A DNA stretch of 36,374 nucleotides from Oculatellaceae cyanobacterium Prado106 (lineage in GTDB: Bacteria; Cyanobacteriota; Cyanobacteriia; Elainellales; Elainellaceae). Below are positions 26,047-33,512 of the stretch, one piece after another (the first letter of the stretch is position 1; each line of letters starts with the position of its first letter). Made by a program: the position numbers and the translations under genes. The notes below the pieces were generated by a model that ran no database searches, had not been told where the DNA came from, and worked only from the letters and a program-made list of their open reading frames with translations. Where the stretch lies: the NCBI GenBank assembly GCA_025454315.1, contig JALOOP010000007.1, forward strand, positions 1 through 36,374, read 5' to 3'.

Positions 26047-26275
26047 AGGCTTTGTAGAATTAACCGCAGAGAGGCGAAAGGCGAAAGGGGAAGGGCGAAA
26101 GGGGAAGGGCGAAAGGCGAAAGGGGAAGGGCGAAAGGGGAAGGGGAAGATTTTCGATCTATTTTGCTGTCCCTCATCGCCCCATCCCCCCATCCCCTCTA
26201 TCGCCCCACTCCCTCTATCGCCCCACTCCCCACTCCCCACTCCCCACTCCCCACTCCCCACTCCCCACTCCCTCA
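26046..26275. repeat. Low-complexity tract with CCCCACT heptamers
   Basis: 26078-26145 is made of GGCGAAAGGGGAAGG units; 26180-26272 contains ATCGCCCCAT and then eight or so tandem CCCCACT heptamers. The heptamers abut the stop codon of the DUF6765-like gene. This is the short tandemly repeated repetitive (STRR) type of DNA common in filamentous cyanobacteria. Confidence 0.85.
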
Positions 26276-27340
26276 AACCGCACAAATCCCGTAACGAGGC
26301 AGTAACTCATGCAGGATGTGAAAATGGTGGGCTTGCAGAGCATCATGGAAGCGTTTCCAGTGGCTGTTGAGGAAGGTTTGGCTGTAGGCGAAAGTTTCGT
26401 CGGTTTGGTCGATGACTTTTTCGGTGCCGAGGGCGATGTACTTCCAAGAGTTTTTGCCTTTGGGGAGGTAGGTGACGATCGCTTTGCCAAAGCTGAATTG
26501 ACCTTGGGCGATCGCACTGACCCATTTCTGATGCCGCGCATGTTTGTCTTCGTCGGTAGTGGTGCGGAGCATTTTGTCGATTAGGAGGCGATCGGGTTTG
26601 GGAATCTCGTCGGCTTCTTTGAAGGTGGGATCACCGAGTTGGTAGCAGCGCAGGGCTTGATAGAGATGATCGGCAGCTTCTAGGAAGTCTTTGGGGTTGT
26701 CGCGCCAGATTTGTTCGCCGCGTCCGTTGGTGTAGCCCCAGCGCAGGAAAGGGCGATCGGGATTGCTCAGCACGGCTCCATGACCCAGCGGTAAGGCTTC
26801 ACTGATGAAGTAGCCAGCCATCCGGCTCATGAGTTTGCGATCGGGATTTCCCTGAGCGTCCACTAAACGAGTGGCGACGTTAATGGGATGGTTGATTCCA
26901 GCAAAGCCTTGGTGCGACCAGGTATCTGCGTAGACATGCATCGTGATCCCCAGGCGGTGCAGGGCATAGGGGCGATGTTGCTCGCGGATGCATTCCTTCA
27001 CCATGTCTTGGGCGACATAGCTATTGGGGCGGCAGATGAGGCGATCGATGAATGCGCCGCCCGCCTCTTGTCCCGCAGGTAGACCATTGTTTCCCGGCAA
27101 AAAATGGAACGGAATCCAAACATGGTGATTGGAGAGTTCCTTGAAGTTGCGGTAGTCCAACATGCGGTGAGCCGAACTCATGCGGCTAAACAAGGCTCCA
27201 TTGCTAAATCGAATCAATCCGCCGTTAATCGCATCATCCACATACTGGGCGCTGTAGGCGATAATGCTGGCTGCTTCATGCTCAAATCCGGCTAGGCGCG
27301 CTAGAACATAGGTCACGCCATGGTGAAAGTCAATTTGCAT
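26273..27340 (-). CDS. DUF6765-type protein
   Basis: The 355-aa product begins MQIDFHHGVTYVLARLAGF and has a YSAQYVDDA block, HVWIPFHFLPGN, and RLGITMHVYADTWSHQGFAGI. The many conserved His and Asp residues, in a mainly helical protein, recall metal-dependent phospholipase C/nuclease folds and match the DUF6765 pattern I know. There is no signal peptide, so it would be cytosolic. Function unknown. It lies downstream of the ccm cluster but is separated from it by a terminator and a 12-bp inverted repeat. Confidence 0.75.
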   Translation of the reverse strand: MQIDFHHGVTYVLARLAGFEHEAASIIAYSAQYVDDAINGGLIRFSNGALFSRMSSAHRMLDYRNFKELSNHHVWIPFHFLPGNNGLPAGQEAGGAFIDRLICRPNSYVAQDMVKECIREQHRPYALHRLGITMHVYADTWSHQGFAGINHPINVATRLVDAQGNPDRKLMSRMAGYFISEALPLGHGAVLSNPDRPFLRWGYTNGRGEQIWRDNPKDFLEAADHLYQALRCYQLGDPTFKEADEIPKPDRLLIDKMLRTTTDEDKHARHQKWVSAIAQGQFSFGKAIVTYLPKGKNSWKYIALGTEKVIDQTDETFAYSQTFLNSHWKRFHDALQAHHFHILHELLPRYGICAV

Positions 27341-27738: not shown

Positions 27739-28530
27739 TTAAGGTTCTGAGTTAATTGAAATTTCTTTGAGGTCGGGCAGTGCCACCTGTTCGGAAACTT
27801 CTTCGAGCACCTTTTCGGTTTCTTTGAGTTCGATGGGCATGGCGATCGGCTGGGGTTTTTCGATCCAGCAACTGGCGACGGGTAGGGTTTCTTCCAAGTC
27901 TTCCAGGGGTCTGGGGATGACCATGACGGCGTGGAGTTCGCCGATGCGTTCGGCTTCGTGCATCCCGGCTTCGATCGCCATTGCGACATCGGCGACTCGA
28001 CCGCGAATAATGGCGGTACAGAGGCCATCGCCGATCATTTCATAGGCGGCGAGTTGGACTTCGGCGGATTTCAGCATGGCATCGGCAGCGCCTACCATGG
28101 CGGGGAAACCGCGCGTTTCGAGGAGGCCGACGGCCTGGTTGCTGAGGCGGCTGTAGCCCTGTTCTTCGACCAGTTTGGAGAGACGGCTGCTGATGGGGAG
28201 GACGACTTCCAGGTTGGCAAGGGGGCGAGAAATGATGGATTTGGAGACGAATTGACCAAATTGCTCGGCGACGGCAGCGCCTTCTTCCACGGCGATTCTG
28301 ACATCGGCAATGCGGCCTCGAACGATCGCAGTACAGTAGCCACTGCCAATTTTTTCGTAGCCCACCAGCCTCACCGAGGAGGCTTTTAGCATCATGTCTG
28401 CCGTCCCGACGATCGCCGGAAAGCTCCGGGTAGAAACCATGCCCAGTGCGCTTTCGCTGATGATTTGCGGCTGTCGGGTGGAGCGGGATGCGAGGGGAGC
28501 GGAAGTCATGGCGGTGTCTCGTGCCTCCAT
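27739..28530 (-). CDS. ccmO: Carboxysome shell protein CcmO, two BMC domains
   Basis: CcmO is a tandem-BMC shell protein needed to close beta-carboxysomes. Domain 1 (about 22-108) has [50 protein letters not shown]; domain 2 (about 124-206) has AVGLLETRGFPAMVGAADAMLKSAEVQLAAYEMIGDGLCTAIIRGRVADV. The N-terminus (about 20 residues) and the Glu-rich C-terminal tail of about 55 residues lie outside the domains. The start ATG 28530 has GGAG seven bases before it. It is 45 bp after ccmN and is the last gene of the cluster, followed by a terminator. Confidence 0.95.
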   Translation of the reverse strand: MEARDTAMTSAPLASRSTRQPQIISESALGMVSTRSFPAIVGTADMMLKASSVRLVGYEKIGSGYCTAIVRGRIADVRIAVEEGAAVAEQFGQFVSKSIISRPLANLEVVLPISSRLSKLVEEQGYSRLSNQAVGLLETRGFPAMVGAADAMLKSAEVQLAAYEMIGDGLCTAIIRGRVADVAMAIEAGMHEAERIGELHAVMVIPRPLEDLEETLPVASCWIEKPQPIAMPIELKETEKVLEEVSEQVALPDLKEISINSEP

Positions 28531-28574: not shown

Positions 28575-29507
28575 TCAGCCGGGAGGTGGAGTAGAATCCG
28601 CCTCTGGACTAGGATTTTCTAGCTGCTGCTCTAGCTGTTGTCGATGGGGAAACATGGTGATCAGCATTCGCTCCAGATACATCTGTCCATAAATCGGATT
28701 TTTGGCACCGTTCTGGGGGGCACTTCCATTCCCTGACGTAGCGGAGTCGGCAGAAGTTGCAGGCGGTTCTGTAGCGGGTGAAGTCGGCGAAACTGAGGAA
28801 AAGGGGGATGCAGGAGTCGATGCAGTGGAGTAGGGCGGTACAAAGGTTGATGAATTGGAGGGGGGCGGCACAAAGGTTGAGGCGGACGGCGGGGCGATCG
28901 CATTGACCGGGTTCGCGGCAGCGTTGTACGACCTGAAGCCGTTGGTCATAAAACGGTTAGAGTCTGAATCTTTGCGATAAAAATCAGGGTCAAAGCCGTT
29001 GGCCGTAGGGTCTTCTTTTCGATAAAAGTCGGGGTCAAAGCCGTTGGTCGGATTGTCTGGAGTGGCAGTGGCTGGCTCGGGAGCAGCAGGGGTAGAACTG
29101 TCAGCAACATGCCCTGTAGAGACGGGAGGTGTGGGCTGTTCGGCAAGGTTGACGGGACGACTGCGATCGCCAATCAAAGACCCAGGTGGCACTGTATACT
29201 CGGGCGCAACCGTACCATCAAAAATCGTCACATTCGAGCCAATACAGGCATCCATGCCCACCTGACTATGGCCAAAAATCAGCACCCCACTGCCGAGTGT
29301 TGCCCCCGGTTCAATTTCAATCACACCCTGCTGAGCATGGAGAATGCAGCCACCCCCAATGCTTACGCCTGCACCAATCATGACTCTGGCACCTGGATCG
29401 GCTTGGATCAGCACATTGGGAGCGATCGCCGCACTGGGGTGAATCGTCACATCGCCGCTGATAAAAATTTGGGAATCGCTGATCAAGGGCGATCGCGGTA
29501 AGAGCAT
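28575..29507 (-). CDS. ccmN: Carboxysome assembly protein CcmN
   Basis: CcmN links CcmM to the shell. Residues 15-110 are left-handed beta-helix hexapeptide repeats (IHPSAAIAPNVLIQADPGARVMIGAGVSIGGGCILH). The C-terminal amphipathic encapsulation peptide is at about 272-292 (IYGQMYLERMLITMFPHRQQL), which binds CcmK. The linker between them is unusually long and low-complexity (about 115-270) and contains NGFDPDFYRK twice (155-164, 170-179) and STFVPP twice (210-215, 220-225). At 310 aa it is longer than the CcmN proteins I know, because of this linker. Confidence 0.92.
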   Translation of the reverse strand: MLLPRSPLISDSQIFISGDVTIHPSAAIAPNVLIQADPGARVMIGAGVSIGGGCILHAQQGVIEIEPGATLGSGVLIFGHSQVGMDACIGSNVTIFDGTVAPEYTVPPGSLIGDRSRPVNLAEQPTPPVSTGHVADSSTPAAPEPATATPDNPTNGFDPDFYRKEDPTANGFDPDFYRKDSDSNRFMTNGFRSYNAAANPVNAIAPPSASTFVPPPSNSSTFVPPYSTASTPASPFSSVSPTSPATEPPATSADSATSGNGSAPQNGAKNPIYGQMYLERMLITMFPHRQQLEQQLENPSPEADSTPPPG

Positions 29508-30139: not shown

Positions 30140-31852
30140 CTACGGACGCTGCACGATGATCTCGGAGATCCGGCGCTTCGACTTGGTGTCTACCCCGACC
30201 ACGCGGACATATTCGCCGCTGTTTTCGGCTAGACAACGCTCTAGAGCGGCCACAATGTCATTGCCTTGCAGAGGGCCGCAGCTATTCCAGGAGCTTGTTT
30301 GGAAGCGACGTTTGTCGGCATGTTCAGCCGAGATGCTGTAGCCTTGCGCCATCATTTGCCGCACTTGGGAAACTACGTCAGGCTTGATATGGCCGTTGCC
30401 GTTGCCATTGCTGTGATGGCCGTTGCTGCTGGATTGGGGTGCAGCCGGAGCCGAGTAAGAGGCGTGGCCATTGCTGGAACCGCCGCCGGGGGCACCGTTG
30501 GGGCGCTGGATCACCATTTCGGAGATGCGGCGCTTGGATTTGGTGTCGATGCCGAAGAGACGGACATATTCGCCGCTGTGTTCGGCAAGGCAGGATTCGA
30601 GAGCGGCGATCGCATCGGATTCGCGGCTGGCTTGAATGGGGGAGCAGCTATTCCAGGCATTGATCTTGAAGCGACGGGCATCGGCATGTTCGGTGCCTAG
30701 CTTGTAGCCTTGGGAGACGAAATAGCGAATTTTTTCCAGGACATCGGGAGTCAGACCGCCGCTGCCCGAGTAGCTGCCCGAGTAGCTACTAGCCTTGGGT
30801 GCGCTGTAGCTGCTGTAGCTGCTGGAAGAACTGCTGGGGGAAGCGGAAATCCGTCCCAGGGCAGAATCACCGGGGCGCTGAATCACCAGTTCTGAGACGC
30901 GGCGCTTGGACTTGGCATCAATGCCAAAGAGGCGGACATATTCGCCTTCATGTTCAGCCACACAGGCTTCCAGTGCGGCAATGACATCGCCTTCGCGGGT
31001 GGATTTGCTGGGCGTGCAGCTATACCAGGAGTTGATTCTAAAGCGGCGGGCATCTGCATGTTCGGTGCCGATCTGAAGCCCCTGGGAGAGGAGTTGACGG
31101 ACACGATCGATAACTGCGGGGTCTAAGCGGTTACTTTGCATAGGATTGAGATGAGAGGTTGAAGGACTAGAAGCGGGACTAGAAGCGCTCGATGGGGAGG
31201 CAAAAGAGCTAGCGGGATCGCCGTTGAAGGTTTTTTCCAACTGGGCACGAATGGGGGCGACACAAACGGTGCTTTCGGAGGGTTGCGATCGCATTCCCTG
31301 CGTCCGACCCGCCACATGATCGGCAAATTGGCGATCGCTCGGCTGTACATCGGGGAGGCGATCGGCCTGCTGCTGCGTCGTAATGATCGAACCGGACGGA
31401 ATATATTTACCGGGTGGAATCTCAACATCTTGAACTAGGGCATGCATCATGACGATGCAGCCTTTGCCCAACTTGGCGTTAAAAATCGTTGAGCGAAACC
31501 CAACAAAGCACTGATCGCCCAGATAGACGGGGCCATGAATCAGCGCCATGTGGGAAATAGAGGTATTTTGACCAATCCAGACCGAATAAGACCGCTGATC
31601 ATCCCCGGTGACCTGGCCTTGGGGCAATCCGTGAATCACCACGCCATCCTGAATTTGGCTGCCTGCCCCAATCTGAAACACTTCGCCAGCGCCTGCGCGA
31701 ATCGAAGTGCCCGGAGCAATCATCACCTCAGAGCCGACGGTGATATCCCCGACCAGGTTGGAGAAGGAATGGATGTAAGCCGATGGGTCAATTTGGGGTT
31801 GCGCCGTTGGCTTTGACCAGGGGGTTAACGGAGCAGAACCAGTCGCGACCAT
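30140..31852 (-). CDS. ccmM: Carboxysome scaffold CcmM: gamma-carbonic anhydrase domain plus three SSUL domains
   Basis: CcmM crosslinks Rubisco in the carboxysome core. The 570-aa protein has a left-handed beta-helix gamma-carbonic-anhydrase domain (about 15-205) with the three zinc histidines H74, H101 and H106, then three Rubisco-small-subunit-like domains (about 243-327, 366-451, 488-570) joined by Ser/Gly-rich linkers. Each SSUL has a Cys pair (C279/C297, C403/C421, C525/C540). A Cys lies at 197, but its expected partner six residues earlier is Pro191. M238, just before SSUL1, could start a short isoform, though no ribosome binding site is seen there. Confidence 0.95.
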
Positions 31853-32141: not shown

Positions 32142-32444
32142 TTACCGATCGCTTTCTCGTTTGCTATAGCGGAAGGCACTATCCACACTGACGGTGTCAA
32201 TAATGCCGATAATCAGAGCATCCAATGGCCGAGCTTCGCCGCCGGGAGTCTGACGAGCAGCACTCCCATAGCTGACTAACACCCATTCATTGATGCCTGC
32301 TCCGACGCTATCCGCAGCAACTTCGTAGCCCGGCATCGGCTGCCCCTCATTGTCGATCAGTTGCACCACCAGGAACTTGACGCCAGTTAAACTTGGCTCC
32401 TTCTGGGTGCTGACAACGGTGCCGCAGACTCTAGCAATTTGCAT
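32142..32444 (-). CDS. ccmL: Carboxysome shell vertex protein CcmL
   Basis: CcmL forms pentamers (BMC-P, EutN/CcmL family) at the vertices of the shell. The 100-aa sequence shows MQIARVCGTVVSTQKEPSL, KFLVVQLID, ADSVGAGINEWVLVSYGSAAR and PLDALIIGIIDTV, typical of the family. It starts 20 bp after ccmK1, on the same strand, with no obvious ribosome binding site. A hairpin follows its stop. Confidence 0.95.
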   Translation of the reverse strand: MQIARVCGTVVSTQKEPSLTGVKFLVVQLIDNEGQPMPGYEVAADSVGAGINEWVLVSYGSAARQTPGGEARPLDALIIGIIDTVSVDSAFRYSKRESDR

Positions 32445-32463: not shown

Positions 32464-32802
32464 CTAGGGGCGGGTGGGGCGAATCCCACTGACGCTTTCC
32501 CGGAATGCTTCGACTGCCTCGGTGTAACGGATGGGCAGCACATATTCCAGGTTTTCGTGAGGACGAGCAATGATGTGGGTAGACAGAACCTGTCCGCCGT
32601 TGACTCGCTTCACGTTGTCAATGCCAGCGGCGACGGAAGCTTGTACTTCAGAGACATCGCCCCGAACAATCACGGTCACGCGACCGCTACCGATTTTCTC
32701 GTAACCGACCAGGGTGACTCTAGCGGCCTTCACCATTGCGTCTGCTGCTTCAACAACAGCGGGGAAGCCAAGAGTTTCAACCATTCCAACTGCGATCGCC
32801 AT
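32464..32802 (-). CDS. ccmK1: Carboxysome shell hexamer protein CcmK1
   Basis: A single-domain BMC-H protein of 112 aa: [44 protein letters not shown], with the pore-lining KIGSGR. It forms hexamers that tile the shell facets and allow passage of bicarbonate. It differs from CcmK2 by a longer C-terminus ending [13 protein letters not shown], the same distinction as in Synechocystis, where CcmK1 is the second of the pair. A clear GGAAGGGAG precedes the start. Confidence 0.95.
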
Positions 32803-33203: not shown

Positions 33204-33512
33204 TTACGATCGGAAATGTTCTACCGCCTCCGTGTAGCGGATGGGCAGGACATATTCCAGGTTTTCATGGGGACGGGCAATGATGTGAGTAGAAATCACT
33301 TCGCCCCCGTTCACTCGCTTGACAGACTCAATGCCTGCTGCGACTGAAGCTTGGACTTCGGAGACATCGCCCCGAACAATGACGGTAACGCGACCGCTAC
33401 CAATCTTTTCATAGCCGACCAATGTAACTCGCGCTGCTTTCACCATGGCATCCGCTGCCTCTACCACGGCAGGGAATCCCCTGGTTTCAATCATTCCTAC
33501 AGCAATCGGCAT
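33204..33512 (-). CDS. ccmK2: Carboxysome shell hexamer protein CcmK2
   Basis: A 102-aa BMC-H protein that is nearly identical to CcmK1 through residue 97 and ends in the short EHFRS. The pore motif KIGSGR is present. CcmK2 is typically the most abundant facet protein. It is the first gene of the cluster, and GGAG lies about 9 bases before its ATG. The large gap upstream and the divergent ndhF suggest that the main promoter is in 33513-35447. Confidence 0.95.

Follow-up and report, generated by a model that had tools for sequence, protein, structure and literature searches.

Background

Two well-described systems bracket the CcmM considered here. In Thermosynechococcus elongatus BP-1, the N-terminal gammaCA domain of CcmM (PDB 3kwc) is an active carbonic anhydrase that requires oxidation of the C194-C200 pair (Pena 2010, as cited in PMC13249358), and Thermosynechococcus is reported to be without CcaA (PMC9120777). 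In S. elongatus PCC 7942, the corresponding domain (gammaCAL; PDB 7o4z) is inactive, the genome encodes CcaA (Zang et al. 2021, PMC8580825), and CcaA docks on CcmM via the helical peptide PEQQQRIY, preceded by Trp257 (PMC8580825). CcaA-containing strains are described as tending toward inactive CcmM (PMC13249358), and alignments covering 17 thermophiles (Tang et al. 2022, PMC9120777) and 12 alkaliphiles (PMC5472144) have led to the inference of inactive CcmM beside CcaA. For the more distant gamma-class enzyme Cam of Methanosarcina thermophila, Glu62 is assigned to proton transfer and Asn73, Gln75, and Asn202 to a hydrogen-bond network, in a review that counts TeCcmM among enzymes active without a Cam-like Glu62 (PMC4519908).

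The Carboxysome Locus

The window, i.e., the whole 36,374-nucleotide stretch of DNA analyzed here, carries a beta-carboxysome cluster of the ccmK-L-M-N-O type on the minus strand, with two ccmK genes and with CcmM encoded within it:

27739..28530, minus strand: ccmO-like shell protein with a double BMC domain (PF00936, two stretches)
28575..29507, minus strand: hexapeptide-repeat protein in the ccmN position (PF00132)
30140..31852, minus strand: ccmM, a 570-aa open reading frame with a gammaCA-like N-terminal domain (PF00132) and three SSUL (RbcS-like) modules (PF00101, three stretches)
30143..31117, minus strand: the three SSUL modules, two Cys each (SWYSC..EAC, AWNSC..ESC, SWNSC..ERC), from the translation and PF00101
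31229..31852, minus strand: CcmM gammaCA-like domain, residues 1-208, aligned with 3kwc residues 25-228
32142..32444, minus strand: ccmL (PF03319)
32464..32802, minus strand: ccmK shell protein, assigned by eye from its similarity to the ccmK at 33204..33512
33204..33512, minus strand: ccmK shell protein (PF00936)

CcmM has the architecture of the carboxysome scaffold, with SSUL repeats (three PF00101 stretches) following a gammaCA-like domain (PF00132), and because the frame stays open through all three SSUL modules, the lesion described below is not a frameshift. The genome of origin is a draft (7.5 Mb, 609 contigs, 92.1% complete), in which CcmM gave a single match and a second CcmM was not found. 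Directly downstream of the carboxysome cluster lies a gene for a DUF6765 protein (PF20551, 374 bits; 26273-27340, minus strand).

Lesions in the gammaCA-Like Domain

The residues that bear on activity were located as follows:

31262..31264, minus strand: Cys197, kept, equivalent to Te Cys200 (HMMER alignment to 3kwc)
31280..31282, minus strand: Pro191, at the position of Te CcmM Cys194 (HMMER alignment to T. elongatus CcmM, 3kwc)
31283..31288, minus strand: Ser189-Gln190, between whose codons Gly-Tyr is deleted (Gly-Tyr in 106/106 pair-intact CcmMs)
31301..31303, minus strand: Thr184 for Asn, the Cam Asn202 equivalent (column by profile alignment)
31535..31537, minus strand: His106, zinc ligand, kept (translation and domain alignment)
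31550..31552, minus strand: His101, zinc ligand, kept (translation and domain alignment)
31631..31633, minus strand: His74, zinc ligand, kept (translation and domain alignment)
31655..31657, minus strand: Gln66 for Asn, the Cam Asn73 equivalent (HMMER alignment)
31688..31693, minus strand: Gly54-Ala55 for Asp-Glu, the Cam Asp61-Glu62 equivalents (HMMER alignment)

An earlier note on this DNA had described three intact zinc His, a second Cys at residue 197, Pro191 six positions before it, and no partner Cys nearby. All of this was borne out by the presence of His74, His101, and His106, by the codons at 31262-31264 and 31280-31282, and by the column alignment to 3kwc, in which GYQCAENIAC of T. 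elongatus stands opposite --QPSESTVC of the window, the first Cys being replaced by Pro and the preceding Gly-Tyr deleted. Compared with an active CcmM-type gamma-CA, the three zinc His are thus present and the C194-x5-C200 pair is absent. Besides Cys197, the domain contains only C115 and C132; the VAPIR stretch after Cys197 is retained, as are Gln68 (Cam Gln75 equivalent) and Asp69. The note was right about the missing Cys, but its list of lesions was incomplete: Asp54/Glu55, Asn66, and Asn184 are also substituted and Gly-Tyr is deleted, so that Ala55, Gln66, and Thr184 occupy the places of the second-shell residues Glu62, Asn73, and Asn202 of Cam. Since our alignments place Glu in the Cam Glu62 column of Te CcmM, contrary to the grouping in PMC4519908, the weight of E55A is uncertain and the case is not rested on that substitution alone. 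The note had left the domain as inactive or controlled otherwise; because of the additional active-site lesions, the former appears much the likelier.

By conservation scoring, the window CcmM differs at 17 of the 94 positions that are ≥95% conserved among 106 pair-intact main CcmMs. The pair-intact copies themselves (n = 106) have at most 10 altered positions and a median of 0, and broken copies (n = 67) have a median of 18. The first Cys is present in 106/106 of the pair-intact set by definition; Gly, Tyr, Asn184, and Leu187 are equally invariant (106/106) though unused in defining the set, and of these Asn184 and Leu187 are altered in the window. The activating segment scored 0.65 bits per column versus an intact mean of 3.21 (sd 0.47, minimum 1.4), and the core domain 2.88 versus 3.53 bits per column in intact copies. 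AlphaFold2 models failed to separate the two states, with a mean pLDDT of 69.3 for the window domain (35 rows) and 73.7 for the pair-intact relative L283, and with an activating segment below 50 in both.

CcaA and Its Putative Docking on CcmM

The earlier note also expected another carboxysomal anhydrase such as CcaA, and suggested looking for ccaA in the genome. A profile search matched two CcaA-like beta-CAs (PF00484), of 289 aa and 223 aa, and the expectation holds for the former. The 289-aa protein scored 164.9 bits against PF00484, above the cut-off, keeps the beta-CA motifs CSDSR and GHSHCGA, and has as its closest solved structure 5swc (E 1.2e-96), which we take to be Synechocystis CcaA. 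Its C-terminal tail holds WIPPEQSARRVYRGN, with the motif QSARRVY, which resembles the peptide by which S. elongatus CcaA docks on CcmM and has one Arg more than the usual PEQ..RIY. The protein therefore combines the beta-CA catalytic domain with the long C-terminal extension, ending in a docking motif, that characterizes CcaA. The docking tail is absent from the 223-aa protein, and an alpha-CA (PF00194) was not found in the genome by a search that was positive in S. elongatus. On the CcmM side, the window protein matches S. elongatus gammaCAL at 6/8 of the residues that contact CcaA there, the exceptions being L81->T82 and R126->K127 (conservative).

Two relatives, G416 and G417 (L324, L325; L289, L290), have CcaA tails, WIPPQPANVYRG and WIPAQAANIYRG, that deviate from the usual motif, as does WIPPEQSARRVYRGN of the window. 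These genomes also differ at the CcmM docking site, with E82, H127, and T/S144 in G416/G417 and T82 and K127 in the window. Judging from these sequences, the CcaA tail and the CcmM pocket possibly co-vary.

Among CcaA-like proteins generally, a strict tail motif (W..[PA]..) was dropped as too narrow and replaced by [QE]..R{1,2}[IV][YHSR], which occurred in 76/91 proteins, 48/53 of those in genomes with a broken pair and 28/38 of those in genomes with an intact one. Ten intact-pair genomes were without the motif, five of them carrying a tailless form alone. Tailless CcaA-like beta-CAs with FPVP near the C-terminus were seen in G000 (contig C176, L002:1411-2082) and at L184-L186, L195, L196, and L198-L200. 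In the first survey, the CcmM Cys pair was kept in 5/5 genomes with the tailless form alone, which suggests that this form is no carboxysomal substitute. In family f13 (L150, L154, L180; G054, G079, G207), the CcmM pair is lost and the CcaA tails end in WYG..DTFSVSG, not PEQ..RIY, possibly another recruitment peptide.

Distribution of the Cys Pair and CcaA

A total of 386 genomes of the phylum were surveyed, of which 155 had a match and 126, all within the class, had CcmM, yielding 128 CcmM domains; the 29 matches outside the class were short gammaCA-like ORFs and were dropped. In this even sample the pair was missing or broken in 34 rows, and CcaA (>300 bits) was present in 32/34 of those genomes; it was absent from G233 and from G179, whose CcmM copy is interrupted. 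The 94 pair-intact rows comprised 62 without a CcaA-like protein, five with the tailless form only, and 27 with CcaA. CcaA match scores were sharply bimodal, either >260 bits or <81 bits.

The survey was enlarged to 173 main copies by adding the window's GTDB family (36 genomes) and genomes with a satellite CcmM. With CcaA defined as a match of ≥285 bits and tailless-only genomes counted as being without it, 64 copies were broken with CcaA, three broken without, 38 intact with, and 68 intact without. This table is uneven, with 14 main copies added for genomes carrying a short satellite; CcaA is assigned by score in five added genomes at 285-296 bits (G467, G512, G516, G610, G617), and G179 (L130, the interrupted copy) is left out of the counts and of the conservation scoring. 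All 68 intact copies without CcaA keep the pair together with HHH, Arg-Asp-Glu (RDE), and Gln-Asp (QD), so 68/71 main copies in CcaA-less genomes retain the pair and the whole site. The three broken genomes without a CcaA match are G233, G387 (69% complete), and G415 (85% complete); congeners of G233 and G415 have CcaA, and these three may reflect assembly gaps. From the 173-copy counts, a complete site accompanies the lack of CcaA; where CcaA is present, decay is allowed without being obligatory.

By taxonomic rank (INDEPENDENCE), broken copies occurred in 12 GTDB families, eight of which also held intact copies, and five genera were mixed. Within f4, f14 (genus g57), and f18, CcaA-less members are intact and broken members have CcaA. 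A core-domain tree required 24 parsimony changes of pair state on weakly supported branches, and a tree-based independent-contrast (sign) test found two pairs on supported branches, too few to give it any power, and was non-significant; counts by GTDB family and genus, with monophyly of those groups assumed, were relied on instead. The interrupted CcmM (L130) belongs to a 3.0-Mb genome of genus g45 (G179) without CcaA; in the same genus, G143 (2.8 Mb) is without any CcmM match and G139 (4.8 Mb) has a full CcmM, a pattern suggestive of carboxysome loss accompanying genome reduction.

In the window's own GTDB family, the Cys pair is intact in nine of 36 genomes and broken in 27, and CcaA is present in 33/36, the other three being 68%, 69%, and 85% complete. 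The state of the window, with the second Cys only, recurs in G401, G414, and G397, and six genomes, all pair-broken, have lost the third zinc ligand (G395, G397, G399, G403, G404, G405). G416 and G417 keep the pair, have already lost the Asp-Glu pair, and have a CcaA tail similar to that of the window; the order of loss is therefore variable, with no fixed sequence. Named records with identical segments suggest that Oculatella sp. LEGE 06141 and Phormidium tenue FACHB-886 belong to this family.

Short Satellite CcmMs

Satellite ccmM genes with one SSUL have already been described (PMC5853843). Short CcmMs of roughly 305-320 aa, consisting of a gammaCA domain and one SSUL, were found in 21 genomes, and the pair and HHH were kept in 22/22 copies examined, a third short copy in G598 being left unaligned. 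The main CcmM was broken in 13/20 of the short-copy genomes where one was found; none was found in G535.

Upstream regions were searched with what we take to be the Zur-like palindrome consensus, TGANAATNATTNTCA, in a relaxed form. A box with ≤1 mismatch preceded short ccmM in 8/8 loci of one clade (L313, L315, L353, L354, L355, L357, L358, L382; in G409, G406, G598, G422, G554, G511, G532), with 6/8 of these loci retrieved once the pattern had already been noticed. At the same stringency, no box was found in 139 regions upstream of main ccmM (0/139), nor in a second short-CcmM clade (0/9 loci with upstream sequence: L383, L385-L392; G508, G516, G512, G527, G535, G467, G421, G610, G463), L384 having too little upstream sequence. 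The second clade, mostly of family f23, keeps the pair intact, and its main CcmM is often degenerate. The L316 copy has no Zur-like box within 400 bases, and boxes occur elsewhere in that locus. In family f2, the short CcmM (L201, L202; G002, G294) keeps the pair and HHH and has a Zur-like box with one mismatch in 2/2 cases; from the main CcmM of these genomes, both the pair and one zinc ligand (QHH) have been lost.

Neighbors of the boxed short ccmM are cysteinyl-tRNA synthetase (cysS), hisI, and a COG0523 GTPase, identified by Pfam for L313 and partly for L315 and L316, and from ORF starts in L353, L354, L355, and L358; at L357 and L382, cysS alone of this set was identified. A similar gene set is reported for Zur-controlled gammaCA clusters of proteobacteria (Haas et al. 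2009, PMC2770081). A literature search by title, covering CcmM with Zur or zinc limitation, found no paper on a Zur-boxed short ccmM among those listed, and the link is apparently unpublished. The boxes and their neighborhood suggest that the short CcmM of this clade is a candidate zinc-starvation carboxysomal anhydrase.

Interpretation

Our preferred reading, to which we give a probability of roughly 0.88, is that the gammaCA domain of the window has little or no catalytic activity left and acts as a trimerizing scaffold (gammaCAL) that would recruit CcaA, catalysis having been lost after CcaA took over. Under this reading, CcaA, a beta-class anhydrase brought to CcmM by its C-terminal peptide, would carry out bicarbonate dehydration; with CcaA in charge, selection on the gammaCA active site and its redox switch would be relaxed; the C-terminal activating segment and the second-shell catalytic residues would decay; and the domain would retain its fold, its zinc His, and the greater part of the surface on which CcaA docks. 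The scaffold reading is supported by the CcaA of the same genome, the 17/94 altered positions, the survey counts, the pattern within the family, the 6/8 docking residues, and the contrast with the short copies, and the activating Cys and active-site residues were almost certainly lost because CcaA took over the chemistry. Counting against it are the 38 genomes with both CcaA and an intact pair, the three broken genomes without a CcaA match, the two of eight docking residues that differ, the extra Arg in the CcaA tail, the weak tree support, and the uncertain weight of E55A.

Activity without the disulfide, with the C-terminal segment held in another way and the enzyme constitutive or gated by something else, would fit the retention of the three zinc His, Gln68/Asp69, Cys197, and the following VAPIR stretch, but it is very unlikely: the domain no longer has a counterpart of Cam Glu62, Asn73, or Asn202, Gly-Tyr is deleted, 68/71 main copies in CcaA-less genomes keep the pair and the whole site, and CcaA is present in the window genome. 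Even less credible is a redox switch in which Cys197 forms a substitute disulfide with C115, C132, an SSUL Cys, or between subunits. A free Cys197 does remain, and the second-Cys-only state recurs in G401, G414, and G397; however, C115 is nearly invariant and C132 the majority residue in CcmMs with the normal pair, so both were ruled out as new partners, and G397 has lost a zinc ligand, so that its state looks like decay. An error of sequencing, assembly, or annotation might be suspected in a draft of 609 contigs for which the family search returned no other genome of the genus, yet it is the least plausible explanation and close to negligible, as the frame is open over 570 aa with all SSULs intact, the lesions are spread across the domain (17 sites), and 26 further genomes in the family carry broken segments that differ in sequence.

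Beyond the preferred scaffold reading of the window, a broader proposal is tentative and stands at slightly under even odds: that the Cys pair marks which protein performs carboxysomal CO2 release, that the main gammaCA decays repeatedly in the presence of CcaA, and that several lineages keep the activity in a short CcmM, which in the one Zur-boxed clade would allow a switch from zinc-dependent CcaA to a (possibly iron-loaded) gamma enzyme when zinc runs out. The window genome would then represent the decayed state without a short-CcmM back-up. If the association holds, one CcmM motif, taken together with whether CcaA is present, largely reveals the carboxysomal anhydrase in use, a rule that would help the annotation of CCMs and carboxysome engineering. 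The zinc-regulated-looking satellite CcmMs, for their part, make a connection of zinc supply with the carboxysome open to testing.

Comparison with Known Systems

The window CcmM shares its gammaCA family and zinc site with Cam (1thj; E 1.3e-40) and, unlike Cam, is without the Glu62, Asn73, and Asn202 equivalents. With the active T. elongatus enzyme (3kwc; 298 bits, residues 4-205) it has in common the fold family, as judged by sequence, and the zinc His, whereas C194 is replaced by Pro191, Gly-Tyr is deleted, and the Asp-Glu/Asn/Asn second shell is substituted. It resembles S. elongatus PCC 7942 gammaCAL as a probably inactive gammaCA-like N-domain of a beta-carboxysome CcmM, in that the window genome has CcaA and the docking residues are mostly kept; in contrast to gammaCAL, it still has one of the two paired Cys and a more Te-like active-site core, and the CcaA tail and docking site are slightly atypical. 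In Leptodesmis, Leptolyngbya, Leptothermofonsia, and Thermoleptolyngbya, which have ccmM and ccaA, CcaA alone is described as likely active (PMC9120777), as we infer for the window; those thermophiles are other strains, and the pattern is counted here over more genomes. In the parts of the literature consulted, no count of the pair against CcaA of comparable size was seen. Since CcaA with a CcmM inferred to be inactive has been published for thermophiles and alkaliphiles, the decay of CcmM beside CcaA recurs in evolution and is in essence already known, and the window is another case of it.
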